DNA of 33,513 nucleotides. Origin: Alphaproteobacteria bacterium. GTDB lineage: Bacteria > Pseudomonadota > Alphaproteobacteria > DSM-16000 > Inquilinaceae. Under the pieces are notes generated by a model. It saw nothing but the letters and a program-made list of their open reading frames with translations. It was not told the origin of the DNA and did no database searches. The stretch is from positions 1 through 33,513 of the forward strand of contig JAAAOG010000158.1 of the NCBI GenBank assembly GCA_009909005.1, in the 5' to 3' direction. Shown one piece after another: positions 573-25,703 of this stretch. Numbering within the stretch: the stretch's first letter is position 1; every line of letters begins with the position of its first letter. Position numbers and translations under genes: made by a program.

Positions 573-1502
573 ATGAGTGACAACCGGACCCGCGACACGC
601 TGGGCGCGGCCATGACCCGGGCGACGCGCCGGCTGACCGACGCCGGCATCCCCGACGCAGCGGCGGACACGCGCGTGCTGGCCGGTCATGTCCTGGGCCT
701 CGACCGTGGGCAGTTGCTGACGCAGCGCGATCGTCCGCTGAGCCCGGCCGAGCGCGACGCCTTCGCCGCCGCCATCGACCGGCGGCTGCAGCGCGAACCC
801 GTGTCGCGAATCGTCGGGACACGTGAGTTCTGGAGCCTCGACTTTGCCGTCACGCCGGCGACGCTCGACCCCCGGCCGGACAGCGAGACGGTAATCGCCG
901 CCGTTCTGGACCGCATGCCCGACCGCGGCCGGCCGCTGCGGCTGCTCGATCTCGGCACCGGAACCGGCTGCCTGCTGCTGGCCCTGCTGTCGGAGTTGCC
1001 GGCGGCCTGGGGTCTCGGCATCGACCGGAGTGCGGCGGCGGTGCACGTGGCCGGGGACAACGCCGCGCGGCTCGGTCTCGGCGGCCGGGCAAGCTTCGCC
1101 GTCGCAGACTGGACCGCGCCGCTCTCGGCCGATTTCGATGTTGTTGTCGGCAACCCGCCCTATATAGCGGATGGAGAGCGGCGCGCTCTCGAACCGGAGG
1201 TCAGGCTTTATGACCCCGCCGCGGCGCTCGATGGCGGGATCGATGGGCTGGAGGCCTATCGGGCGATCCTTGCGGCTTTGCCGCACTGTCTGGCGAAAGA
1301 CGGGATCGCTGCGCTGGAAATCGACTGCACCCAGGCAGAGGCGGTCGGGCGGCTGGCCCGAGGCTGCGGCTTGGCCTGCCTCGCCATTGTCCAGGATCTG
1401 TCGGGCCGGGATCGGGCCATTGTGCTCTGCCACAAAGGTTCCCTGATCCTGACAAAAAAAAGTTGGATTCTTTCCGATTTGCCGCTAGGCTTCCCCGCAT
1501 GA
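573..1502 (+). CDS. prmC: Peptide chain release factor N5-glutamine methyltransferase PrmC (HemK)
   Basis: PrmC methylates the glutamine of the GGQ motif in release factors RF1 and RF2, using S-adenosylmethionine, in the cytoplasm. The protein has 309 residues, slightly longer than the usual 280-290. It has an N-terminal helical substrate domain (about 5-85), the SAM-binding motif LDLGTGTGCL (about 125-134), an acidic residue closing the next strand (GID, about 149-151) and the diagnostic NPPY catalytic motif at 194-197. The ATG at 573 is chosen because the full N-terminal domain begins there; no strong ribosome binding site is visible. The last 20 residues after the usual C-terminal strand follow a run of eight A (about 1456-1463) and look non-conserved, so they may be a drifted tail. 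The DUF4167 gene follows, as is common in alphaproteobacteria, but prfA is not directly upstream. Confidence 0.93.
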   Translation: MSDNRTRDTLGAAMTRATRRLTDAGIPDAAADTRVLAGHVLGLDRGQLLTQRDRPLSPAERDAFAAAIDRRLQREPVSRIVGTREFWSLDFAVTPATLDPRPDSETVIAAVLDRMPDRGRPLRLLDLGTGTGCLLLALLSELPAAWGLGIDRSAAAVHVAGDNAARLGLGGRASFAVADWTAPLSADFDVVVGNPPYIADGERRALEPEVRLYDPAAALDGGIDGLEAYRAILAALPHCLAKDGIAALEIDCTQAEAVGRLARGCGLACLAIVQDLSGRDRAIVLCHKGSLILTKKSWILSDLPLGFPA

Positions 1503-1639
1503 TGACGCCGGGGATGAGGGCTTTACCCGGAACCCGGCGTGGCCTTCCCAAAGACGTCAGTGTGTTGGAAGCTGGTGGCGGTGGCGAACCCGCCTGAGCG
1601 AGGGCTGCAAGTTCCCCTGCGTTCAGTCTCCGGTCGATT

Positions 1640-1720
1640 GAATTCGACCGTTCCTCTGTGGGTTTCGACCTTCGGTCTTTGGGTTCGACCTCCGGTCTGT
1701 GGGTTTCGACCCCGGCTCTT
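1640..1720 (+). repeat. Tandem 19-21 bp repeat, about four copies, each with a small inverted repeat
   Basis: Four units lie at 1640-1660, 1661-1681, 1682-1701 and 1702-1720. The shared core is GGTTTCGACC, followed by a TTC/TCC/CC loop, GGTCT and a short G/T stretch. Several units contain a short palindrome such as GACCTTCGGTC. A partial fifth unit (CTCCGGTCGATT) precedes them. The array lies between prmC and the DUF4167 start at 1746, so it would be in the 5' leader of the DUF4167 message. Confidence 0.75.
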
Positions 1721-1745
1721 GCGAACGAGACGAAGCCAGGCATTG

Positions 1746-2636
1746 ATGAGACAGGCTCCCAATACCCGACGTACTCGCGGCCGGAGCAACGGCACCAATC
1801 GGCGCGCGAATCTTCCCAACCGGAATCAGACATTTGACAGCAACGGGCCGGAAGTCCGGATCCGTGGCAACGCCTATCAGGTGCACGAAAAGTATCTGAC
1901 CCTGGCGCGCGATGCCTCGGCTTCCGGCGACCGGATCATGAGTGAGAATTATTTGCAGCATGCCGAGCACTATTACCGCATCATCAATGCCATAAACGAA
2001 GCCTATCGCGAAGCCGAACGCCAGACCTACGAACAGCCGCGCGAATCCAGCGCCCGCGAGCAGGGGCAGCGCGACAATGGCGGCCGGGACGGGAAAGGCG
2101 GCGACGGCGGCAGCCGGGAGAGCGGCCTGTTCGACGGCAACACCTTCGACGGCGACCCTACCGATACCGGACCACGCGATAACGGCCACCGCGACCAGCG
2201 GGAGGCCGGCAGCGGCGAGACCGGCCGGCGGGAAGGCAAAGGCCGGGACAGCCGCGACAACGGTCAGCGCGAGGGTGCGGCCAAGGGCAATGGCCAGGCG
2301 CGCGACCATGGCTTCAGGAACAGCGACAGCGGCCAGCCGGATATCGAGGACCCGCGGGATTCGCGTGGGCTCGATTTCGGGGCAGACCCGCGGCACGGCG
2401 ACGACGAACCGGAGGGTGACGAGAGCGAGCAGGAGCGGTCCTTGCCGCGGCAGCGTCTTGTCGACCTGACCGGCACGCCCGAGGCGGGGGCCGGAGCCCA
2501 GGCCGCGGAAGGGGGCGAAGGCGGCGAGCCGCAGAAGGCGCCGCGACCGCGTCGCCGCGTGCAGCGCCCGCGCCGGACAAGCGTCAACGGCACCACGGAC
2601 ACCGCCGGCGGGTCCGACGGCGACGCGGAGGGCTGA
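1746..2636 (+). CDS. DUF4167 domain protein with a long disordered charged tail
   Basis: The N-terminal part (residues 1-95) starts MRQAPNTRRTRGRSN and contains the block VRIRGNAYQVHEKYLTLARD followed by SENYLQHAEHYYRI, characteristic of the alphaproteobacterial DUF4167 family, which usually lies beside prmC. The ATG at 1746 is chosen because the conserved basic N-terminus begins there; the frame is open further upstream but that part is the tandem repeat. The rest of the 296 residues is low-complexity: RDNGxRD-like repeats (about 100-205), an acidic stretch (about 220-245) and a basic Pro/Arg segment with RPRRRVQRPRR near residue 275. This suggests an intrinsically disordered, nucleic-acid-binding tail, but no function is established. 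A membrane or enzymatic role is not supported. Confidence 0.85.
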   Translation: MRQAPNTRRTRGRSNGTNRRANLPNRNQTFDSNGPEVRIRGNAYQVHEKYLTLARDASASGDRIMSENYLQHAEHYYRIINAINEAYREAERQTYEQPRESSAREQGQRDNGGRDGKGGDGGSRESGLFDGNTFDGDPTDTGPRDNGHRDQREAGSGETGRREGKGRDSRDNGQREGAAKGNGQARDHGFRNSDSGQPDIEDPRDSRGLDFGADPRHGDDEPEGDESEQERSLPRQRLVDLTGTPEAGAGAQAAEGGEGGEPQKAPRPRRRVQRPRRTSVNGTTDTAGGSDGDAEG

Positions 2637-2677
2637 GCCACCGGTTCCGCCCATCCGGATCCTCGTCGGCAGCCGTC

Positions 2678-4210
2678 ATGACGGACAATCGGCCGACCGC
2701 AGCCAGCGCCGCACCGCCCGGCGCCGCGGTCGCACCCTATGCTGACTTCGCTCTTCTCCTCGGCGGTGTGGCGGTCCTGACGCTGGTCCGCCTCGTCTAT
2801 CTGCACGCGGAAGTCTATCCGCTGCATGCCGACGAGGCGCAGTACTGGAGCTGGGCGCTCGACCCGGATTTCGGCTATTACTCGAAGCCGCCGATGCTTG
2901 CCTGGCTGATCTGGCTGACCACGGCGACGATCGGCGACGGCGAATTCGGCGTGCGGCTCGCCTCGCCACTGGTCCATGCCGTCACCGCCATCATGGTGTT
3001 CCTCAGCGGCCGGGCCTTGTTCGACGCGCGTATCGGCCTGTGGGCCGGCCTGACCTATGCCACCCTGCCTGCCGTCAGCTTGTCGTCCATCATCGCCTCG
3101 ACCGACGCGCCGCTGCTGATGTTCTGGTCGATCGCGCTGTTCGCCTTCATCAAGGCGCTGCAGCGCGGCGGGCTCGGCTGGTGGGGCCTGTGCGGCCTGG
3201 CGCTGGGCCTCGCCTTTCTCAGCAAATATGCCGCGATCGCCTTTGTCGGCTCGGCCGCCCTCTACCTTCTGCTGTCCGACCGGCACCGCCCGGCCCTCGC
3301 CACGCCCGGACCCTATCTGGCGCTTGCGATCGCGCTGGCGCTTCTGGCGCCCAACCTCGCCTGGAACGCCGCGCATGGCTGGCTGACGATCGGCCATGTC
3401 GGCGAAAATGCAGCGCTGGGCGGCCCGCTGTTCCACCCCGACAATCTCGCCGACTTCCTCGGCGCCCAGTTCGGCGTTTTCGGCCCGATCCTGTTCGCGG
3501 TCCTGCTGGTGATGCTGGCGCGCGCCGGCCGCCTGGTCCGCAGCGAGCCGCTGTTCCTGCTCCTCAGCTTCGTCGTGCCCATGCTGGCGGTGATTTCGGT
3601 GCAGGCGCTGTTGGTGCGGGCCCACGCCAATTGGGCGGCACCGGTCTATGTCGCGGCGACGCTGGCCGTCGTCGCCTGGCTTGAACAGTCCGGCCGGCAC
3701 AAGCTGGTGCTCGCCTCGCTGGCGCTGCATCTGGTGGCGGCGATGGTGATCTACGGCTTCGAGGCGGCGCGCCCGCTGACCGGCCTGGCCGACGACCGCG
3801 CCACCGACCCGGCCCGGCGGGTGCGCGGCTGGGACCAGGTCGGTCCGCCCCTGGCCGGCCTGCGGGCCCGTTATCCCGACACGCTGCTCCTGTCCGACGA
3901 ACGGCGCTATCTCGCCCACTATATCTACGAGGCGCGCGTGCCGCTGGCCGAGGCGTTCAAATGGGATCGCAATGGCCGCATCGACGACCATTACGAAATG
4001 ATCCACGACCTGAACGACCATGTCGGTCGCGACTTTCTTTTTGTCACCCGCTGGGGCCCGCGCGAGGTACCGGACCATTTCGACCGGGCCGAACGCCTGC
4101 CCGACATCGTCGTGCCCACCCACAGCGATTCAGAGATCGCCCTGCAAGTCTGGCTGCTGGAGGGCTTCCGGGGCTACGACCCGCCGCTCAGCGTCCCGCC
4201 GCGCGAATGA
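2678..4210 (+). CDS. GT39-family membrane glycosyltransferase (ArnT/PMT-like)
   Basis: A 510-residue polytopic membrane protein. The first transmembrane segment (about 24-43) is followed by HADEAQYW at 50-57, the acidic pair of the GT-C fold (D52, E53), and then by YYSKPPMLAWL, typical of ArnT-like and dolichyl-phosphate-mannose-type transferases. About ten more hydrophobic segments fill residues 80-365, and a soluble C-terminal domain of about 140 residues follows. Such enzymes move a sugar from a polyprenyl-phosphate donor to a lipid or protein on the periplasmic face; the donor and acceptor here cannot be told from sequence. The gene starts 41 bp after the DUF4167 gene and may be co-transcribed with it. 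It converges on the minus-strand CAP protein gene with a 23-bp gap. Confidence 0.85.
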   Translation: MTDNRPTAASAAPPGAAVAPYADFALLLGGVAVLTLVRLVYLHAEVYPLHADEAQYWSWALDPDFGYYSKPPMLAWLIWLTTATIGDGEFGVRLASPLVHAVTAIMVFLSGRALFDARIGLWAGLTYATLPAVSLSSIIASTDAPLLMFWSIALFAFIKALQRGGLGWWGLCGLALGLAFLSKYAAIAFVGSAALYLLLSDRHRPALATPGPYLALAIALALLAPNLAWNAAHGWLTIGHVGENAALGGPLFHPDNLADFLGAQFGVFGPILFAVLLVMLARAGRLVRSEPLFLLLSFVVPMLAVISVQALLVRAHANWAAPVYVAATLAVVAWLEQSGRHKLVLASLALHLVAAMVIYGFEAARPLTGLADDRATDPARRVRGWDQVGPPLAGLRARYPDTLLLSDERRYLAHYIYEARVPLAEAFKWDRNGRIDDHYEMIHDLNDHVGRDFLFVTRWGPREVPDHFDRAERLPDIVVPTHSDSEIALQVWLLEGFRGYDPPLSVPPRE

Positions 4211-6549: not shown

Positions 6550-6565
6550 TGTCCCCTGTGTGACA
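6550..6565 (+). promoter_or_regulatory. NifA upstream activator site 1 (TGT-N10-ACA)
   Basis: TGTCCCCTGTGTGACA matches the NifA binding consensus TGT-N10-ACA exactly. It lies 140 bp upstream of the -24 element of the nifH promoter, within the usual distance for enhancer-type activation of sigma-54 promoters. Confidence 0.8.
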
Positions 6566-6580: not shown

Positions 6581-6596
6581 TGTCGCGTTCCCAACA
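6581..6596 (+). promoter_or_regulatory. NifA upstream activator site 2 (TGT-N10-ACA)
   Basis: TGTCGCGTTCCCAACA is a second exact TGT-N10-ACA match. Its start is 31 bp after that of site 1, about three helical turns, so two NifA dimers could bind on the same face of the DNA. It lies 109 bp upstream of the -24 element. Confidence 0.8.
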
Positions 6597-6635: not shown

Positions 6636-7726
<1,091 letters not shown>

Positions 7727-7905: not shown

Positions 7906-9465
7906 ATGAGCCTCGACGACATGAACGCAAAGACCACGGAGAGCCAGGCGGCCGCGGAAAACGCGCCGGTCCGCCCTGAGGCCGCCGCGACCGCCGAAGA
8001 CGGCGCCGCCGTCGAAGGCTCCGACTACACGGTCGATGCCGAATTCCACCGCGCCCTGATCGCCGAAACGCTGGAAGCCTATCCCGAGAAGGCGGCCAAG
8101 CGGCGCGCCAAGCATCTCGCCGTCAACGACCTGACCAAAGCCGATTGCGGCGTTCGTTCCAACGTCAAGTCCGTGCCCGGCGTCATGACGCAGCGCGGCT
8201 GCGCCTATGCCGGCTCCAAGGGCGTGGTCTGGGGCCCGATCAAGGACCAGGTCGGCATTTCGCACGGCCCCGTCGGCTGCGGGCATTATTCCTGGGCCCA
8301 GCGCCGGAACTACGCCACCGGCCATACCGGCATCGACAATTTCGTTGCCATGCAGATCACGTCGGACTTCCAGGAACGCGACATCGTCTTCGGCGGCGAC
8401 AAGAAGCTCGCCATCATGATCGACGAGCTGGAGACGCTGTTCCCGCTGAACCACGGCGTGTCCATCCAGTCCGAGTGCCCGGTCGGCCTGATCGGCGACG
8501 ATATCGAAGGCGTGGCCCGCGCCAAGGCGAAAGACACCGGCAAGCCGGTGGTGCCGGTCCGGTGCGAAGGCTTCCGCGGCGTCTCGCAGTCGCTCGGCCA
8601 CCACATCGCCAACGACACCATCCGCGACTGGATCCTGCCGCGCGATGACCCGGATCCGGGCTTCGAGCCGACCCCCTACGACATCGCCGTGCTCGGCGAC
8701 TACAATATCGGCGGCGATGGCTGGTCCTCGCGCATCCTGCTGGAAGAGATGGGCCTCAGGGTCATCGCCCAGTGGACCGGCGACGGCACCATGGCGGAGC
8801 TGAAACGGGCACAGAAGGCCAATCTGATCCTCATCCACTGCTACCGCTCGATGAACTACATCGCCCGGTACATGGAGGACAATTTCGGCCTGCCCTGGAT
8901 GGAGTACAACTTCTTCGGCCCGACCAAGATCGCCGCCAGCCTGCGCGAGATCGCCGACAAGTTCGACGACACCATCCGCGAAAATTGCGAGAAGATGATC
9001 GCCAGGTACCAACCCGGCGCCGATGCGGTCGTCGAAAAGTACGGCCCGCGCCTTAAGGGCAAGAAGGTGGTGCTGTTCGTCGGCGGCCTGCGCCCCCGCC
9101 ACGTCGTCGGCGCCTATGAGGACCTCGGCATGGAGGTCACCGGCACCGGCTACGAATTCGCCCACAAGGACGACTACGAGCGGACGGCCAAGGAGGTCAA
9201 GGACGGCACCCTGATCTTCGACGACGCCTCCGGCTACGAACTCGACCAGTTCATCGAGAAGATGCGCCCCGATCTCGTCGGGTCCGGCATTAAAGAGAAG
9301 TACCCGACGCAGAAGATGGGCGTGCCGTTCCGCCAGATGCACTCCTGGGACTATTCCGGCCCCTATCACGGCTATGACGGCTTTGCCGTGTTCGCCCGCG
9401 ACATGGACGCCGCCATCAACAATCCGGCTTGGGAGCTGCTGTCCGCCCCCTGGCAGGCCGCCTGA
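7906..9465 (+). CDS. nifD: Nitrogenase MoFe protein alpha chain NifD
   Basis: NifD with NifK forms the alpha2beta2 MoFe protein that reduces N2. In the 519-residue product all key residues are present, offset by +37 from the Azotobacter vinelandii numbering: P-cluster ligands C99, C125 and C191; FeMo-cofactor ligands C312 ([11 protein letters not shown]) and H479 ([12 protein letters not shown]); and the active-site residues V107, R133, Q228 and H232. K463, near homocitrate, is also kept. The offset comes from an Ala/Glu-rich N-terminal extension of about 30-40 residues before the conserved [15 protein letters not shown] (58-72). The ATG at 7906 has a strong AAGGAGG just upstream. The set of ligands marks this as a molybdenum-type enzyme rather than VnfD or AnfD. 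It belongs to the nifHDK operon. Confidence 0.98.
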
Positions 9466-9495: not shown

Positions 9496-11034
9496 ATGCC
9501 ACAAAACCTCGACCCGGTGAAGGACCATATCTCCCTGTTCCAGGAGCCGGAATACCAGAACCTGCTGAACAAGAAGCGGGAGCTGTTCGAAAATCGGCAC
9601 GACCCCGAAAAGGTCCAGGAGGTCCTGGAATGGACCAAGACCTGGGACTACCGGGAAAAGAACTTCTCGCGGGAAGTGGCCTGCATCAACCCGGCCAAGG
9701 CCTGCCAGCCGATCGGTGCAACGTTCGCCGCCGCCGGGTTCGAAGGCACCATGGCCTTCGTCCACGGCAGCCAGGGCTGTGCGGCCTATTTCCGCTCGCA
9801 CCTGACCCGCCACTTCAAGGAGCCGTCCACGCTGGTCAGCTCCTCGATGACCGAGGACGCGGCGGTCTTCGGCGGGCTCAACAACATGATCGACGGGCTC
9901 GCCAACTGCTACAAGCTTTACGAGCCGAAGATGATCGCGGTGTCCACGTCGTGCATCGCCGAGGTGATCGGTGACGACCTCAACTCCTTCATCCTCAATG
10001 CCAAGGAAAAGGGGTCGGTGCCGCAGGACTTCGATGTTCCCTACGCCCACACGCCGTCCTTCACCGGCAGCCACATCAATGGCTATGACGCCATGATGCA
10101 GGGCATCCTCCACCATTTCTGGGAGGACCGCGAGCGGACCGAGAACGACAGCATCAACATCATCCCCGGCTTCGACGGCTATTGCGTCGGCAATAACCGC
10201 GAGTTGAAGCGCATCCTCGACATGATGTGCGTCAACTACACGATCCTGTCCGACACCGCCGACGTCTACGACACCCCGACCGACGGCTCCTTCCGCATGT
10301 ACGATGGCGGCACGACGCTCGCCGGCGCCAAGGCGGCGCTGGAGGCCAAGGCCACCATCTCCATGCAGCAGGGCTGCACCAAAAAGACTCTGGCGTACTG
10401 CAAGGAGAAGGGCCAGGCGGTCGAGGCGTTCAACTATCCGCTCGGCGTCAAGGGCACCGACCAGTTCCTGATGAAGATCTCGGAACTGTCCGGCAAGCCG
10501 ATCCCGGAGCAGCTGCGGCTGGAACGCGGCCGGCTGCTCGATGCCATGATCGACAGCATGCACTGGCTGCACGGCAAGCGCATGGCGGTCTATGGCGACC
10601 CGGACTTCTGCCTCGGCATGGTCGGGTTCCTTCTGGAGTTGGGCGTCGAGCCGGTCCACGTCCTGTCGACCAACGGCAACAAGGCCTGGGCCAAGCAGAT
10701 GAAGGCGCTGCTCGCCGGCTCCCGCTTCGGTGCCCGCGCCCAGGTCTGGGAAGGCAAGGACCTGTGGCACATGCGCTCGCTGCTGTTTACCGAGCCGGCC
10801 GATTTCCTCATCGGCAACAGCCACGGGAAGTTCCTGGAGCGCGACTGCGGTATCCCGCTGATCCGTCTTACCTTCCCGATCTTTGACCGTCACCACCATC
10901 ACCGCTTCCCGACCTGGGGCTATCAGGGCGGCCTGCAGGTGCTGGTCCGGATCCTCGACAAGGTCTTCGACAAGGTCGACGAGGAGACCGGCGTGCTCGG
11001 CGTGACGGATATGAGCTACGACGTCACCCGCTAG
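9496..11034 (+). CDS. nifK: Nitrogenase MoFe protein beta chain NifK
   Basis: This is the beta subunit of the MoFe protein, sharing the P-cluster with NifD. The 512-residue product carries the P-cluster ligands C70 (PAKACQP), C95 ([12 protein letters not shown]) and C153 ([12 protein letters not shown]) and the serine S188 in the TPSFTGSH segment, all at the same numbers as in Azotobacter NifK. The C-terminal part has the conserved [17 protein letters not shown]. The start ATG follows an AGGAG 30 bp after nifD, so translation is probably coupled within one transcript. The length is that of the long N-terminal form of NifK. Nothing is missing. The next gene begins 197 bp later, after a hairpin and a palindromic repeat. 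Confidence 0.98.
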
Positions 11035-11045
11035 TCGGACTGTGC

Positions 11046-11070
11046 GGGTCGGGAGTTGCACTCCCGACCC
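11046..11070 (+). promoter_or_regulatory. Perfect 10-bp hairpin just after nifK
   Basis: GGGTCGGGAG (11046-11055), a five-base loop TTGCA and CTCCCGACCC (11061-11070) form a perfect 10-bp stem starting 11 bp after the nifK stop. No T run follows, so it looks more like an mRNA-stabilising or partial-attenuation structure than a full terminator. It could set a lower level of nifEN than of nifHDK. Confidence 0.6.
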
Positions 11071-11120
11071 GGCGGTTTCCGGCCCTGCCGCTGCGAAAAA
11101 AGGCCAGGCAAGAGGAAGTG

Positions 11121-11209
11121 GTCATTCCCGCGAAGCTTGCCCCCGCGAATGCGGGGGGCGGGAATCCAGCAACCGACCGGTCCTGGATGCCCGCTTCCGC
11201 GGGCATGAC
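11121..11209. repeat. REP-like palindromic intergenic repeat between nifK and nifEN
   Basis: The segment begins GTCATTCCCGCG and ends CCGCGGGCATGAC. It has GGGAATCCAG on the left half facing CTGGATGCCCGC on the right, and further internal GC-rich inverted repeats. This design (GTCATTCCCGC...AATCCAG...CTGGAT...ATGAC) is a common mobile or REP-type intergenic repeat in alphaproteobacteria. It occupies most of the nifK-nifEN gap and contains in-frame ATG and GTG codons upstream of the chosen nifEN start. No second copy was noticed in this window. Confidence 0.75.
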
Positions 11210-11231
11210 AGCACCCACGAGTGGTGGCCGC

Positions 11232-13967
11232 ATGATCCAGCAGAAAGTCCAGCACCTCTTCGACGAGCCCGGCTGCGCCACCAACCGCGACAAGTCCGGC
11301 AAGGAGCGGCGCAAGGGCTGTGCGGCTCAGCTGACGCCCGGTGCGGCGGCCGGCGGCTGCGCCTTCGACGGCGCCAAGATCGCCCTGCAGCCGATCGCCG
11401 ACGCCGCCCATCTCGTCCACGGGCCGCTGGCCTGCGAGGGCAATAGCTGGGACAGCCGCCATTCGGAGAGCTCCGGCCCCACACTTTACCGCACGGGCTT
11501 CACCACCGACCTCAGCGAGCTGGACATCATCCAGGGCGGCGAAAAAAAGCTGCTGGCGGCGATCGGCGAAATCGCCGAGCGCCATGCCCCACCCGCCATT
11601 TTCGTCTATGCCACCTGCGTCACGGCGCTGATCGGCGACGATCTCGACAAGGTGTGCGAGGTCGCCGGCCAGCGCTACGGCCTGCCTGTCGTCCCGGTGA
11701 TGGCGCCGGGCTTCGTCGGCTCCAAGAATTTCGGCAACCGCCTGGCCGGCGAGACGCTGCTGCAGCACGTCATCGGGTCCGTCGAGCCGGAGGATGCCGG
11801 CCCCACCGACATCAACATCATCGGCGATTTCAATCTGGCCGGCGAACTCTGGCAGATCACACCTCTCTTCGATCGGCTGGGCATCCGCCTGCGCGCCTCG
11901 ATCAGCGGGGACGGCCGCTACAACGCCATCGCCGGCGCGCACCGCGCCCGGGTCAACATGGTCGTCTGCTCGCAGGCGCTGATCACGCTGGCCCGCAAGA
12001 TGGAGGAGCGCTGGGGCATCCCCTATTTCGAGGGCTCCTTCTACGGCATCTCCGACACCTCGGAGGCATTGCGGACCATGGCGCGGCTGCTGGTGCAGCA
12101 GGGCGCCCCGGCCGACCTCGTCGACCGGACCGAGGCGCTGATCGCCGAGGAGGAGGGTAACGCCTGGACCGCCCTCGCCCCCTATCAGACACGCCTCACC
12201 GGCAAGCGGGTGCTGCTCTACACCGGCGGCGTCAAGTCGTGGTCGGTGGTCTCGGCCCTGCAGGAGGTCGGGCTGACGCTGGTCGGCACCTCGGTGCGCA
12301 AGTCGACCGAGGAGGACAAGGATCGCGTCCGCGCCCTGATGGGCGAGGACGCCAATATGGTCGGCCAGATCCCGGCGCGGGAGATGGACCGCATGTTCCG
12401 GGCGGGCGAGGTCGATGTCCTGCTGTCGGGCGGGCGGACCCAGTTTACCGCCCTGAAGGCCGGCCTGCCCTGGGTCGACATCAATCAGGAGCGCCACCAC
12501 GCTTTCGCCGGCTATGAGGGCATGGTCGAGCTGGTGCGCCGCATCGACCTTGCCCTTGCCAACCCGATCTGGCCGCAGGTCCGCGGCCCGGCGCCCGGGG
12601 ACGACGGTTTCACTGCCCTGCCGGTCGACGAGCGGCCGGAAACGCCGGTCGAGATCGTCAAGAAGGCCTGCGCGGTCAATCCGCTGAAGTCGAGTGCGCC
12701 GCTCGGCGGTGCTCTGGCCTTTCTCGGCGTCGACGGCACGCTGCCGCTGTTCCACGGCGCCCAGGGCTGCACCGCCTTTTCGCTGGTGCTGCTGGTCCGG
12801 CATTTCCGCGAGCCGATCCCGCTGCAGACCACGGCGATGAACGAGGTCTCGACAATCCTCGGCGGCGCGGAGTCGGTCGAGCAGGCGATCGAGAACATCC
12901 GCAGCCGCGCCAAGCCGCAGTTGATCGGCCTTTGCACCACGGCGCTGACCGAGACGCGCGGCGAGGACATGGACGGCGACCTGACGCTGATGCGCCGGCG
13001 CCGGGCGGAAGACTGGGCCGGCACGGAAGTGGTCCTCGCCCCCACCCCGGACTATGCCGGCAGCCTGCCGGAGGGCTGGGCCGCCGCGGTGACGGCGATG
13101 ATCGAGACGCTGACCGATCCGCAGCCCGGCCCGGTCATCCCGGACCAGGTGGCGGTACTGGCCGGCAGCCATCTGACGCCGGGCGATGTCGACGCATTGC
13201 GCGAAACGATCGAGGCCTTCGGCCTGACCCCGGTGATGCTGCCGGACCTGGCCGGCTCGCTCGACGGCCATGTGCCGGATGCCTACATCCCGACCTCCTT
13301 CGGCGGCACGCCGGTGGAGGCGATCCGCACCCTCGGCCGCTCCGCCCTGGCCCTGGCGGTGGGCGAGCACATGCGCGGCCCCGCCGAGGCCCTGGCGGCC
13401 AAGGCCGATGTCCCCTTCACCGTGCTGGACAGCGTCACCGGCCTTCGCGCCGTCGATGCCTTGACGCAGCGGCTGAGCGAGGCCAGCGGCCGACCGGTGC
13501 CGGCGGCGCTGCGGCGCCAGCGGGCGCGGCTTCTCGACGCCATGCTCGATGCGCATTTCTTTTTTGGAAACAAGCGGGTGGCGATCGCGGCCGAGCCCGA
13601 TGCGCTCCTGGCCCTCGGCCGTCTGGTCACGGATATGGGTGCGGAGATCGGCGCTGCGGTGACGACGTCGAAGACCCAAGCCGCCGCCCGGGTCCCGGCC
13701 GACCGGGTGCTGGTCGGCGATCTCGACGACCTCGAACAGGCGGCGCCGGGCTGCGACCTGCTGCTCACCCACAGCCATGGCCGCCAGGCGGCCGGGCGGC
13801 TGGGCATTCCGCATATCCGCATCGGCTTTCCGATCTTCGACCGGCTGGGAGCCGCCGACCGGGTTTCGGTCGGCTATCGCGGCACCCGCGATCTCATCGT
13901 CGAGATCGGCAATGTCCTGATGGCCGCCGAAACCGAGCACCACGACCACCACGCCGAAGGCGCATAA
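11232..13967 (+). CDS. nifEN: Fused FeMo-cofactor scaffold protein NifE-NifN (single polypeptide)
   Basis: One uninterrupted 911-residue frame holds a complete NifE followed by a complete NifN, which are separate subunits in the characterised Azotobacter and Klebsiella systems. NifE-like residues 1-456 include GAAAGGCAFDGAKIAL, GPLACEGNSWD and YTGGVKSWS. A linker of about 18 residues (457-474) leads into the NifN start, KKACAVNPLK (477-486), and NifN-like residues up to about 900. The probable [4Fe-4S] ligands C43, C68 and C129 (NifE part) and C513 (NifN part, GAQGCTAF) are all kept. C246 may match the NifE cysteine implicated in L-cluster binding. NifEN receives the NifB product and matures it with Mo and homocitrate. 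The tail ends in a short His-rich EHHDHHAEGA. ATG 11232 is chosen because conserved NifE sequence starts soon after; its ribosome binding site is weak, and in-frame ATG 11205 lies in the repeat. Confidence 0.95.
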   Translation: MIQQKVQHLFDEPGCATNRDKSGKERRKGCAAQLTPGAAAGGCAFDGAKIALQPIADAAHLVHGPLACEGNSWDSRHSESSGPTLYRTGFTTDLSELDIIQGGEKKLLAAIGEIAERHAPPAIFVYATCVTALIGDDLDKVCEVAGQRYGLPVVPVMAPGFVGSKNFGNRLAGETLLQHVIGSVEPEDAGPTDINIIGDFNLAGELWQITPLFDRLGIRLRASISGDGRYNAIAGAHRARVNMVVCSQALITLARKMEERWGIPYFEGSFYGISDTSEALRTMARLLVQQGAPADLVDRTEALIAEEEGNAWTALAPYQTRLTGKRVLLYTGGVKSWSVVSALQEVGLTLVGTSVRKSTEEDKDRVRALMGEDANMVGQIPAREMDRMFRAGEVDVLLSGGRTQFTALKAGLPWVDINQERHHAFAGYEGMVELVRRIDLALANPIWPQVRGPAPGDDGFTALPVDERPETPVEIVKKACAVNPLKSSAPLGGALAFLGVDGTLPLFHGAQGCTAFSLVLLVRHFREPIPLQTTAMNEVSTILGGAESVEQAIENIRSRAKPQLIGLCTTALTETRGEDMDGDLTLMRRRRAEDWAGTEVVLAPTPDYAGSLPEGWAAAVTAMIETLTDPQPGPVIPDQVAVLAGSHLTPGDVDALRETIEAFGLTPVMLPDLAGSLDGHVPDAYIPTSFGGTPVEAIRTLGRSALALAVGEHMRGPAEALAAKADVPFTVLDSVTGLRAVDALTQRLSEASGRPVPAALRRQRARLLDAMLDAHFFFGNKRVAIAAEPDALLALGRLVTDMGAEIGAAVTTSKTQAAARVPADRVLVGDLDDLEQAAPGCDLLLTHSHGRQAAGRLGIPHIRIGFPIFDRLGAADRVSVGYRGTRDLIVEIGNVLMAAETEHHDHHAEGA

Positions 13968-13978
13968 GGAGGACCGCC

Positions 13979-14503
13979 ATGACCAGCGGCCCGGCACGCC
14001 GGCTGCGGCTGATCGACAAGCCCGCCGAGGACTGGCCCGGCGACCGATCGAGCCCGGCCCCGGAAGGAGGACACATGAAGATCGCCTTTGCCACACAGGA
14101 CCTGAAGACCCTGGACGCCCATTTCGCCGGCGCCCGCAATTTCGCGATCTACGACGTCTCCGAGGCGGAGGCGCGGTTCGTCGAAGCGGTACAGTTCAAT
14201 GCGGCCAGCAAGGAAGACGGCGTCCATGCCGCCGAGGGCGAGGATCGCATCACCCACCGGGTCGAGGCACTGAAGGGCTGCACGCTGCTCTTCGTCCAGG
14301 CGATCGGCGGACCGGCCGCGGCCAAGGTCGTGAATGCCCGCATTCATCCGATCAAGGTGCCGCAGCCGGAGCCGATCACGGCGCTGCTCGATCGCGTCCA
14401 GACCATGCTGCGCGGCACCCCGCCGCCCTGGCTGCGCAAGGTGCTGCACCGCGAGGCGGCCGGCGACCTCGAGGCAACCCCGGCCGAGGAGGGCGTGGCA
14501 TGA
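13979..14503 (+). CDS. nifX: FeMo-cofactor trafficking protein NifX
   Basis: NifX is a small cytoplasmic carrier that binds the NifB-cofactor or VK-cluster between NifB, NifEN and apo-MoFe protein. The 174-residue product has the Dinase/NifX-type fold signature KIAFATQDL..LDAHFAGARNFAIYDV (about 34-60), then LKGCTLLFVQAIGGPAAAKV and HPIKVPQPEPI, followed by PPPWLRKVLHRE near the end. An AAGGAGG overlapping the nifEN stop precedes the ATG at 13979, and the first 32 residues match the usual short N-terminal extension of NifX only loosely. A second GGAGG at 14066-14070 precedes an in-frame ATG at 14075, where the conserved domain starts, so two forms are possible. The gene starts 11 bp after nifEN and overlaps the next gene by 4 bp. 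Confidence 0.93.
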   Translation: MTSGPARRLRLIDKPAEDWPGDRSSPAPEGGHMKIAFATQDLKTLDAHFAGARNFAIYDVSEAEARFVEAVQFNAASKEDGVHAAEGEDRITHRVEALKGCTLLFVQAIGGPAAAKVVNARIHPIKVPQPEPITALLDRVQTMLRGTPPPWLRKVLHREAAGDLEATPAEEGVA

Positions 14504-15046: not shown

Positions 15047-15358
15047 ATGAGCGAATTCGTCCAGCCCCTGGCCCGTGACGGCAGCCCCTGGATGCCAATG
15101 TATCTGGAGGAAATCAGCGCCGAGGAATGCATCGGCTGCGGGCGCTGCTACAAGGTCTGCTACCATAACGTCTTGAAGATGATGGGCGTCAATGACGAGG
15201 GGGAACTCGTCGAGATCGACGATGACGACGACGCCGAGCGCATGATCATGGTCATCGCCAACAAGGGCAAATGCATCGGTTGCAAGGCCTGCGGCGCCGT
15301 CTGCGCCAAGAACGCCCAGAAGTACATCAGCGCCGAGGAGCTTGCCAAGGCTGCGTGA
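15047..15358 (+). CDS. fdxB: Nif-associated 2[4Fe-4S] ferredoxin (ferredoxin III type)
   Basis: A 103-residue bacterial-type ferredoxin likely to carry electrons for nitrogenase or for cofactor biosynthesis. It contains two cluster-binding motifs: C28, C31, C34 and C38 (ECIGCGRCYKVC) and C76, C79, C82 and C86 (KCIGCKACGAVC). A very acidic linker (about 52-63, EGELVEIDDDDD) lies between them. This arrangement, with an approximately 40-residue spacer, is that of the nif-specific ferredoxin III family. An AAGGAGAG lies before the ATG at 15047. It is the last recognised gene of the nif operon and is followed by a GC-rich inverted repeat. The symbol fdxB is used by family convention; naming differs between species. 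Confidence 0.9.
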   Translation: MSEFVQPLARDGSPWMPMYLEEISAEECIGCGRCYKVCYHNVLKMMGVNDEGELVEIDDDDDAERMIMVIANKGKCIGCKACGAVCAKNAQKYISAEELAKAA

Positions 15359-15810: not shown

Positions 15811-17700
15811 TCATGCGTCGACCGGCAGGATAATGGTGACGGTGGTGCCCCGGCCGGGCTGGCTCTCGATCGACAGGCGGCCACCATGCAAGCCGACGAG
15901 ATGGCGGGCGATGGGCAAGCCCAGGCCGGTCCCCTCCCGCGTCATGTCCGACGGGTCACGGACCTGTTCGAAGGGCTCGAAGACCAGCGCAATCTTGTCC
16001 TCGGGAATACCGATACCGGTATCGCTGACGGTCAGCCGGACCTGCTCCTCGCCTTCGGGCCGGATGCGGATGTCGATGCGGCCGCCGGGATCGGTGAACT
16101 TGATGGCATTGCCGATAATGTTCAGCAGCACCCGCTTGAGTGCGTCGGCGTCGGCCGTCAGGGTCACCGGCTCTCCGGGCCGCTCGAAGTCGACGACAAG
16201 CCCCTTCTCCTCGGCCAGGGGCGCCACGACCGTCAGCGAAGCCAGAACCAGCCGCTCCAGGGCGACCGGCTCCGTCACCAGTTCGTACCGTCCGGCTTCG
16301 ATCTTTGACAGGTCGAGCACCATGTTGATGGTCCGCAGCAGGTGCGAGGCGCTGCCGTAGATATCGTTGACATAGCCTTCATAGCGGTCGTGCTCGATCG
16401 CCCCGAAGAGCTTCATGCGCATGATGTCGGCAAGGCCGATAATGCCGTTGAGGGGGGTCCGCAGTTCGTGGCTCATCTGGGCCAGGAATTGCGATTTGGC
16501 GCGATTGGCGCGTTCTGCCTCCTCTTTGGCATCGAGGAGGCCGAGGCGTGCGGCATGGTCGCGCCGTTCCACCGCCTCTGCCATGCGGTTGTAGACGGCG
16601 GCGAGTTTGCCGAACTCGCCCTTGTCGTTGCCGGCCAGCGCCCGGGCTGCAAGGTCTCCCTTCTCCAACCGGCTGGCGGCGTCGGCCAGCGCATCGATCC
16701 GGCGATTGACCAGCCAGTGCGCCCCGCTCCAGGCGAGCAGCGAGCAGAGGCCCACAAGAAAAGCCAGCAGAATGACACGGCGCGCCACTTCGGCATTCAA
16801 GTCCGCCAGAGCCGCAGCCCGCGGCTGGGTCACGGCGATGAACATGCCACCGAGGACATCCGGGACCTGGGCGAAGCCGGCGATCAGGGGTTCGGCGCTC
16901 TCTAGATCGATGGTGCCGGGCTTCGCCTCGGACGCCTGAGCACCGGCGATCAGCGAGAGATTGGCCAGGGGCTGGCCGATCGCCGTGCTATTGCCCGGCC
17001 GCAGCGCCAGAATGGTGCCCTCGCCGGAGAAAACCCGCACCTCCGCACCGTCCGGCAGGACCAGAGTGTCGAGCCAGGCGGTCAGCCAGGTCATCTTGAG
17101 GCCATTGCCGAGGATGCCGGTCATGGAGCCCGTGTCATCGCGCACCGGCTGCATCAGCGTGATGATCGGTTCGCCGCTTGTCACGCCGGTACAAAGCGGA
17201 CCGAGAACGAAGGATTCGGTATCAAAGCTCTGCTGTACCGCCACCGACCAGCTGAGATCGATCGGCTGCGGCAGCGGGTCGGAGCTGCAGACGAGGTGCC
17301 CCGACCGATCGACCATCGAAAAGGCGGAGATGTGCGAATGCAGGGCGGCAACCCGGGCCATGGCTGTTGAGCACGCGGCATGGTCGCCGCCGCGCACGGC
17401 GTCCATGACTGCCAGCGAGGCCAGCACCTGACGACCCGCATCGATACGCGACTGCAATTCGTCGGCAATGGCCACAGCCGACTCCCCCAGGACCGCGGCC
17501 GCATCCTGACGCCGCTGCTCGAATCGATGGCCGATTTCCCAGGTGCTATAGGAAACGAGCGGCAAGAGGACTGCAAGCATGAGCAGAAACAGCCGAACCG
17601 CCATGGAACTGAAGATCGACGAGACGCGGCCGAAGACGGCCTTTCTCGACACGCTCGGGCGTTCTGCTTCGACGCTTTCGCAATCCGGCTGGTCTGGCAT
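15811..17700 (-). CDS. Membrane sensor histidine kinase (extracytoplasmic sensor, HAMP, HisKA, HATPase)
   Basis: A 629-residue sensor kinase. A first transmembrane segment (about 34-52) and a second (about 308-330) bracket a periplasmic sensor domain of about 255 residues resembling a dCache domain. A HAMP linker (about 330-382) and a short coiled coil lead to the HisKA domain, with the phospho-accepting H411 in [15 protein letters not shown]. The HATPase domain shows the N box around N531 (IIGNAIKF), G1 DTGIGIP (560-566) and G2 GTGLGLP (590-596). It has no receiver domain and no response regulator is adjacent, so the partner is unknown. The ligand is unknown. Its 3' end faces the nif operon; a link to nitrogen fixation is only positional. 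An imperfect palindrome lies 53 bp upstream of the start. Confidence 0.92.
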
Positions 17701-24629: not shown

Positions 24630-25703
24630 ATGCCTGCACCGCAAAACCCGCACGATGCACTGTTCCGCTGTCTTCTGGACAACCCGGAGGATGCCGGCGC
24701 GTTGATCCGCGAGCAGCTGCCGCCGGACATCGCCGCAGATCTGTCCGATCGGCCGCCCATCCTCACCGATGCGACCTTCATCGATCCAAGCCTGAAGGAG
24801 ACCCGCGGCGACAGGCTCTACGAGGTAGAGTTGAGGGACGGGTCGCCGGCGCTGCTTTATGTCCTCTTCGAGCATAAGAGCACGCCGGACTCCGATACGC
24901 CGCTGCAGCTTCTCGGCTATATGGTCCGAATCTGGCAGCGCTATACCGCTGGCGGGCCTCGCCGGAAAGCCGCCCTTCCGGCAATCATTCCGCTCGTGAT
25001 CTATCACGGGCAGGTGCCGTGGCGCGTGCCGCTTTCGGTGTTCGACTGCATCTCCGGGGCCGGTCACTGGAAGGAACGGCTGCGCGATTTCCGCTACATC
25101 GTCCGCGATCTGGGCCGCATCGACAACGCGGTATTGTCCCGCACGCCAACCGTGCGGGCGGTGCTGCTGGCCCTGAAATATGCCGCGGCGAAGGAGGCGC
25201 CCCGCGAAATCCTGGCCGAGATCGTCGCTTCATTACCCGAAGGCTCGCAGCTGGAGATTCAAGGCCTCATCTATATGCTTCGCACGTTCAGTCGATTGGA
25301 CCGGGAAACCCTGGTAGATATTGTCAGCGAGGCGAGGCCCGACAGGAGAGACGAGATGGTATCGCTTGCGGCACAGGAATGGATCCAGGAAGGGCTGGAG
25401 AGAGGGTTAAGGCGGGGCCTTGAGCAGGGCCTTGAGCAGGGCCTTGAGCAGGGCCTTGAGCAAGGCCGCGAACAGGGCCGCGAACAGGGCCGCGAACAGG
25501 GTCTTGAGCAGGGCAAAACGATGGGGGAAGCCCATGGTCTTGCCGAGAGCATTGTCGAGATCCTGGCAATGCGGTTTGGGACGGTGGATCCAATGCTTGA
25601 CGCCCGACTCTCGGAGCTTTCGGCCGAGACACTGCGGCCGCTGGTCAGGCGGGCCCTCACGATCTCCTCCCCGGAAGCCCTGCTCGACGCAACATCGCCA
25701 TGA
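24630..25703 (+). CDS. Rpn family recombination-promoting nuclease / putative transposase (YhgA-like)
   Basis: A 357-residue protein of the Rpn/YhgA group, whose members are PD-(D/E)XK DNases that promote RecA-independent recombination. The N-terminal half shows HDALFRCLL (8-16), then a nuclease core with a conserved Asp in FIDPSL or GDRLYEVEL, and the E-x-K motif LFEHKST. The middle has PLVIYHGQVPW and LRDFRYIVRDL. From about residue 249 comes a glycine/glutamine/glutamate tract made of GLEQ and GREQ tetrapeptides, then a C-terminal helical region. A GGAAGG precedes the ATG at 24630. The gene is solitary and resembles the truncated copy at the left edge. Its tetrapeptide tract is encoded by an exact 12-bp tandem repeat that may vary in number. 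Confidence 0.85.
   Translation: MPAPQNPHDALFRCLLDNPEDAGALIREQLPPDIAADLSDRPPILTDATFIDPSLKETRGDRLYEVELRDGSPALLYVLFEHKSTPDSDTPLQLLGYMVRIWQRYTAGGPRRKAALPAIIPLVIYHGQVPWRVPLSVFDCISGAGHWKERLRDFRYIVRDLGRIDNAVLSRTPTVRAVLLALKYAAAKEAPREILAEIVASLPEGSQLEIQGLIYMLRTFSRLDRETLVDIVSEARPDRRDEMVSLAAQEWIQEGLERGLRRGLEQGLEQGLEQGLEQGREQGREQGREQGLEQGKTMGEAHGLAESIVEILAMRFGTVDPMLDARLSELSAETLRPLVRRALTISSPEALLDATSP
25416..25511 (+). repeat. 12-bp tandem repeat (8 copies) inside the Rpn-type gene
   Basis: Eight consecutive 12-bp units, GGCCTTGAGCAG four times (the fourth ending in A), GGCCGCGAACAG three times and GGTCTTGAGCAG once, encode the tetrapeptides GLEQ and GREQ. The unit length is a multiple of three, so copy-number change by slippage would keep the frame. 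The two unit types appear in blocks, which suggests local duplication. Confidence 0.9.

Follow-up and report, generated by a model that had tools for sequence, protein, structure and literature searches.

Does the gene that follows nifK in an alphaproteobacterial nif cluster encode NifE and NifN as a single natural and functional polypeptide, and does it share its origin with the NifEN fusions of other lineages? The window analyzed here is the whole 33,513-nt stretch of contig JAAAOG010000158.1 (assembly GCA_009909005.1); its features are collected in Table 1. The evidence below leads to a joint reading, with a probability of about 0.85, in which the gene is a genuine and probably functional nifEN fusion whose product has an α2β2-like assembly and which originated separately within Alphaproteobacteria.

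Reading Frame and Two-Half Architecture

In translation, nifEN comprises 911 codons, the sole stop codon being the terminal one. The NifE profile TIGR01283 matches residues 3–453 with 638.6 bits (cut-off 505.1) and the NifN profile TIGR01285 matches the second half with 605 bits (cut-off 326.8), and the cut-off of the fusion profile NF011047, 1229 bits, is also exceeded. These scores exclude a chance match for either half. A natural in-frame fusion of NifE and NifN with a linker of about 18 residues had been proposed in the sequence-only reading, and the open frame and the profiles confirm this architecture together with its coordinates. The linker itself is short and rich in proline and acidic residues. 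Upstream of the ATG at 11232 the frame stays open to a GTG at 11118, through a dispersed repeat; assignment of the start to ATG 11232 is in line with where NifE begins in relatives. The genome contains no other nifE or nifN, with matches at the NifEN and NifDK places only, and nifB is present on another contig.

Table 1. Features of the nif cluster in the window and the fused gene of a second alphaproteobacterial genome.
Feature	Position	Strand	Evidence
sigma-54 (−24/−12) promoter-like site TGGCACACCGGTTGCT	6690–6705	+	upstream of nifH; 1 mismatch to consensus
two NifA-type activator-like sites, TGT-N10-ACA	6550–6565 and 6581–6596	+	pattern match
nifH	6806–7726	+	TIGR01287, 445 bits
nifD, separate gene	7906–9465	+	TIGR01282, 828 bits
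nifK, separate gene	9496–11034	+	TIGR01286, 837 bits
nifEN, fused NifE-NifN gene	11232–13967	+	open frame; NF011047, 1293.7 bits over residues 5–906
NifE half, residues 1–456	11232–12599	+	TIGR01283; alignment to A. vinelandii NifE
linker, about residues 457–474, DDGFTALPVDERPETPVE	12600–12653	+	no stop codon, start codon (any frame), or Shine-Dalgarno-like stretch
NifN half, residues 475–911	12654–13967	+	TIGR01285, residues 477–898; phmmer to 3pdi_B
nifX	14075–14503	+	TIGR02663, 169 bits; PF02579
NifX-associated protein TIGR02935	14500–14997	+	167 bits
nif-specific ferredoxin III (TIGR02936)	15047–15358	+	125 bits
G829 fused NifEN, 924 residues	L139 (G829:C1:3807000–3815500), 1323–4094	−	stop-free fused frame

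The Junction

A fused frame could also arise from a sequencing or assembly error, if a missed stop or an indel joined what are two distinct genes in the organism. The gene is known from one draft assembly only (230 contigs, 3% contamination), and nifE and nifN are separate in all near relatives, as such an error would predict. However, a single error would leave the nifN start and its ribosome site in place, yet no ATG, GTG, or TTG occurs in any of the frames between 12557 and 12693, the junction contains no Shine-Dalgarno-like stretch, and neither junction nor linker holds an in-frame stop codon. Since the two halves have identical nearest relatives (L031–L033), no chimera is seen; the GC3 of the linker resembles that of its flanks, and a closed genome described below contains a similar fusion. 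An artefact is therefore highly unlikely.

In the window gene, the nifN start is lost along with the nifE stop. The sequence GAGATCGTC at the beginning of the NifN half matches the codons that stand behind ATG-GCC in relatives, e.g., ATG GCC GAG ATC GTT in L038, which suggests that the ancestral nifN start was replaced by CCG GTC.

Two ordinary chains might still result from the fused gene, either by processing after translation or by an additional internal start of nifN. Nothing positive speaks for such an outcome, although the linker could be exposed, being short and rich in proline and acidic residues. Past the linker, the frame offers no ATG, GTG, or TTG before the GTG codon of residue 519, which lies within NifN and beyond the cluster ligand C513, and the fused NifEN of Geobacter metallireducens (GmNifEN) has been solved as one chain; we regard production of two chains as quite improbable. 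We infer the expression of the window protein as a single chain, its assembly state, and its activity.

Split and Fused Genes among Relatives

Scanning a single genome for each species yielded 80 loci, to which loci from genome surveys were added. Adjacent nifE and nifN on the same strand were found in 118 loci (some of them overlapping) and were separate genes in all 118, the spacing in these split relatives typically ranging from −1 to +15 nt. The surveys covered 17 genomes from the order of the window, 385 from its class, 398 from its phylum, 82 from an Azospirillum-like order, and 397 from a rhizobial order, and included about 175 distinct nif-bearing genomes, as counted from listings. Among the latter, a stop-free full-length NifEN match was found only in the window genome and in G829, a closed 4.36-Mb alphaproteobacterial genome from a different order. 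The G829 linker has its own sequence, unlike that of the window, and is devoid of a start codon. The sole gene annotated as fused among the plasmid records listed was that of Pseudanabaena.

The NF011047 cut-off was considered as proof of fusion and dropped. Split pairs (G010, G494, G572, and others) pass it when read through the stop, with the G010 pair reaching 1294.2 bits after read-through of its TGA, and a passing score by itself thus does not establish a fusion.

Six split relatives (L070, L120, L128, L140, L143, and L146) carry a C-terminal BFD-like [2Fe-2S] domain (PF04324) on NifE, which makes this terminus a recurrent graft site. In many NifE proteins of the rhizobial type (L045, L057, L077, and similar), the C-terminal tail is conserved; it contains an RKFA-like motif and ends in Cys, e.g., ...HAFRKFANSNADEMGEC.

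Cluster Ligands and Structure Model

The NifE and NifN alignments, in which paired read-through rows were used, were read against the numbering of ligands and tunnel-mouth cysteines in Azotobacter vinelandii NifEN (PMC13031127). Residues C43, C68, and C129 correspond to the O-cluster ligands C37, C62, and C124 of A. vinelandii NifE, and C513 to C44 of NifN, in agreement with the earlier claim that these four ligands are kept. The L-cluster ligands are likewise retained (C246 for C250, and Q419 for Q419), as are the tunnel-mouth cysteines (C15 and C30 for C15 and C25), while the equivalent of Ser41 of NifN is Ala510. The window protein thus has what marks a NifE (TIGR01283 and the equivalents of C37/C62/C124, C250, and Q419) and what marks a NifN (TIGR01285 over cut-off and the C44 equivalent). 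Residue 456 (12597–12599) is Gly at the position where a near-invariant Trp otherwise follows the PAP motif near the end of NifE.

An AlphaFold2 model built with 12 alignment rows has medium confidence (pLDDT 69.5, pTM 0.65) and is poor around the cluster sites. Its top match among solved structures is holo-GmNifEN (9i0g; TM 0.74/0.76, 871 columns), and the model fits an arrangement of the two halves as in NifEN.

Genomic Context and Putative Control

The cluster has the gene order nifH-nifD-nifK-nifEN-nifX-TIGR02935-fdx. The site TGGCACACCGGTTGCT is the only sigma-54 match of such quality in the window and may represent the promoter of the nif cluster. The number of TGT-N10-ACA sites is not above chance for the window, and it is solely their placement upstream of nifH that argues for the predicted NifA/sigma-54 control of the cluster.

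Directly past the nifK stop is a perfect 12-bp inverted repeat (11045–11071), and the fold stability of the nifK-nifEN gap is above that of shuffles (z −4.6); the predicted structure could possibly act as an attenuator between nifDK and nifEN. The same gap contains a dispersed palindromic repeat (11121–11210) with about 41 matches in the genome. A sensor histidine kinase gene on the opposite strand (15811–17700, −) adjoins the nif cluster. Farther along (24630–25703, +) lies a gene for an Rpn-family nuclease/transposase-like protein.

Evolutionary Origin of the Fusion

Quick trees, computed without bootstraps, were built from concatenated NifE and NifN. The window nifEN clusters, at a support of 98–99, with split genes from two Rhodospirillales metagenome-assembled genomes and from its own family (G002, G004, and G012). 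The Pseudanabaena fusion lies beside a split cyanobacterial pair (L095), and the Geobacter fusion stands apart from the window gene on a long branch. The AU test rejected a single clade uniting the Pseudanabaena fusion with GmNifEN and the window fusion (p = 2.5e-84), and with it a shared ancestry of the three. NCBIfam does not include common descent with the cyanobacterial and Geobacter fusions in its definition of NF011047, and no such descent was found here; given this rejection, nifEN joins NF011047 by architecture and not by descent of the fusion. A clade of the window and G829 was rejected only marginally (p = 0.043), so the alphaproteobacterial fusions may reflect either one or two events.

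Inheritance of the fusion with known lineages (cyanobacteria, Geobacter, Nitrospira, or that of G829), or its transfer from them, would account for the common order of the halves and the similar length, and the marginal p-value for the window and G829 leaves it some room. Such a history would nevertheless require repeated re-splitting; the window gene falls among split genes of its own family, the fusion linkers are dissimilar to each other, and the AU rejection of a common origin with GmNifEN and Pseudanabaena points the same way. We consider a shared origin rather unlikely, and the window fusion is probably of separate origin from the cyanobacterial and Geobacter ones. It would have formed within Alphaproteobacteria when a closely packed nifE-nifN pair lost the stop of its first gene and the start of its second, in an event independent of those that produced the other two.

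On balance we lean toward NifE-NifN fusion being recurrent and convergent, with at least two to three origins (one or two in Alphaproteobacteria, besides those of cyanobacteria and Geobacter, whether joint or separate), each via loss of the stop and start between tightly packed nifE and nifN. If true, such recurrence would suggest that some lineages are under selection for cis-assembly or a fixed stoichiometry.

Function and Assembly

NifEN would serve as a scaffold: the product of NifB (the Fe8S9C L-cluster, or NifB-co) would take up Mo and homocitrate there and so mature to FeMo-co, before transfer to NifDK. In the proposed arrangement, the NifE and NifN halves fold as two Oxidored_nitro units with a short linker between them, and two fused chains most likely pair to form the equivalent of the ordinary α2β2 tetramer. 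Each [4Fe-4S] O-cluster would be surrounded by the three NifE cysteines and C513 of NifN, while the precursor cluster would be held by C246 and Q419.

Alternatively, the fused gene might be a decaying pseudogene, and the exchange of the conserved Trp for Gly at residue 456 could be taken as a sign of decay. However, ligands and fold residues are kept, dN is lower than dS in both halves in comparisons with four relatives, a complete nif cluster surrounds the gene with nifB elsewhere in the genome, and this is the sole nifE/nifN copy, so that we give the pseudogene explanation scarcely any credence.

Fused NifEN from G. metallireducens and A. variabilis supports nitrogen fixation in A. vinelandii with low activity, in a test strain whose diazotrophic growth depends on added nifEN (PMC10865832). 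The suggestion that the window protein is functional with a forced 1:1 subunit ratio agrees with these fusions and with the cryo-EM structures of GmNifEN (9i0g and 9i0h), where the protein is a single chain. The fusion may also constrain the quaternary structure, as the sequence-only reading proposed. The geometry of the linker from NifE to NifN is evidently tolerated, as in GmNifEN, and the separate rise of the window fusion suggests that joining the NifE C-terminus to the NifN N-terminus is readily tolerated. Fused NifEN has practical appeal for nitrogenase transfer into plants, providing both halves in a fixed ratio from one gene, and the alphaproteobacterial fusion would add to the natural candidates one that has a short linker and is distant from the two tested fusions.

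Comparison with Known NifEN Systems

Fused nifEN genes were previously described in A. variabilis nif2 and Chroococcidiopsis (PMC4284476), in 29 cyanobacterial and Nitrospira assemblies (PMC8399215), and in Thermodesulfovibrio TK110 (PMC12501866). The novelty of the fused architecture that the sequence-only reading implied does not hold, since this architecture has been published for years and has its own NCBIfam model, NF011047. A partial literature search found no report of a NifEN fusion in Alphaproteobacteria, and NCBIfam already names such proteins. What is probably new is the alphaproteobacterial fusion, likely of separate origin, the type of fusion itself being already known.

The window protein scores above the cut-off of the bifunctional NifEN model (NF011047/PRK14477) over its whole length, although this model fails to separate fused from split pairs. 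GmNifEN (9i0g and 9i0h; 919-residue chain) resembles the window protein in having NifE followed by NifN in about 900 residues with the same fold and ligands, and matches it over residues 28–899 with 861.7 bits; it differs in its linker, which is unlike and longer than that of the window, in sequence (46% identity), and in its distant place on the tree. The cyanobacterial fusions (Anabaena variabilis nif2, Chroococcidiopsis, and Pseudanabaena ABRG5-3, WP_126391312.1) share the architecture of the window protein and likewise have nifX next, whereas the Pseudanabaena protein is 52% identical and takes a separate place on the tree. A. vinelandii NifEN (3pdi, 9i0f, and 9onj) has homologous halves and the same ligand set but consists of two separate chains. 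The fused NifEN of G829 belongs to the same class as the window and is also a fusion without a start codon in the linker, yet it differs from the window protein in sequence (62% identity), linker, and branch.
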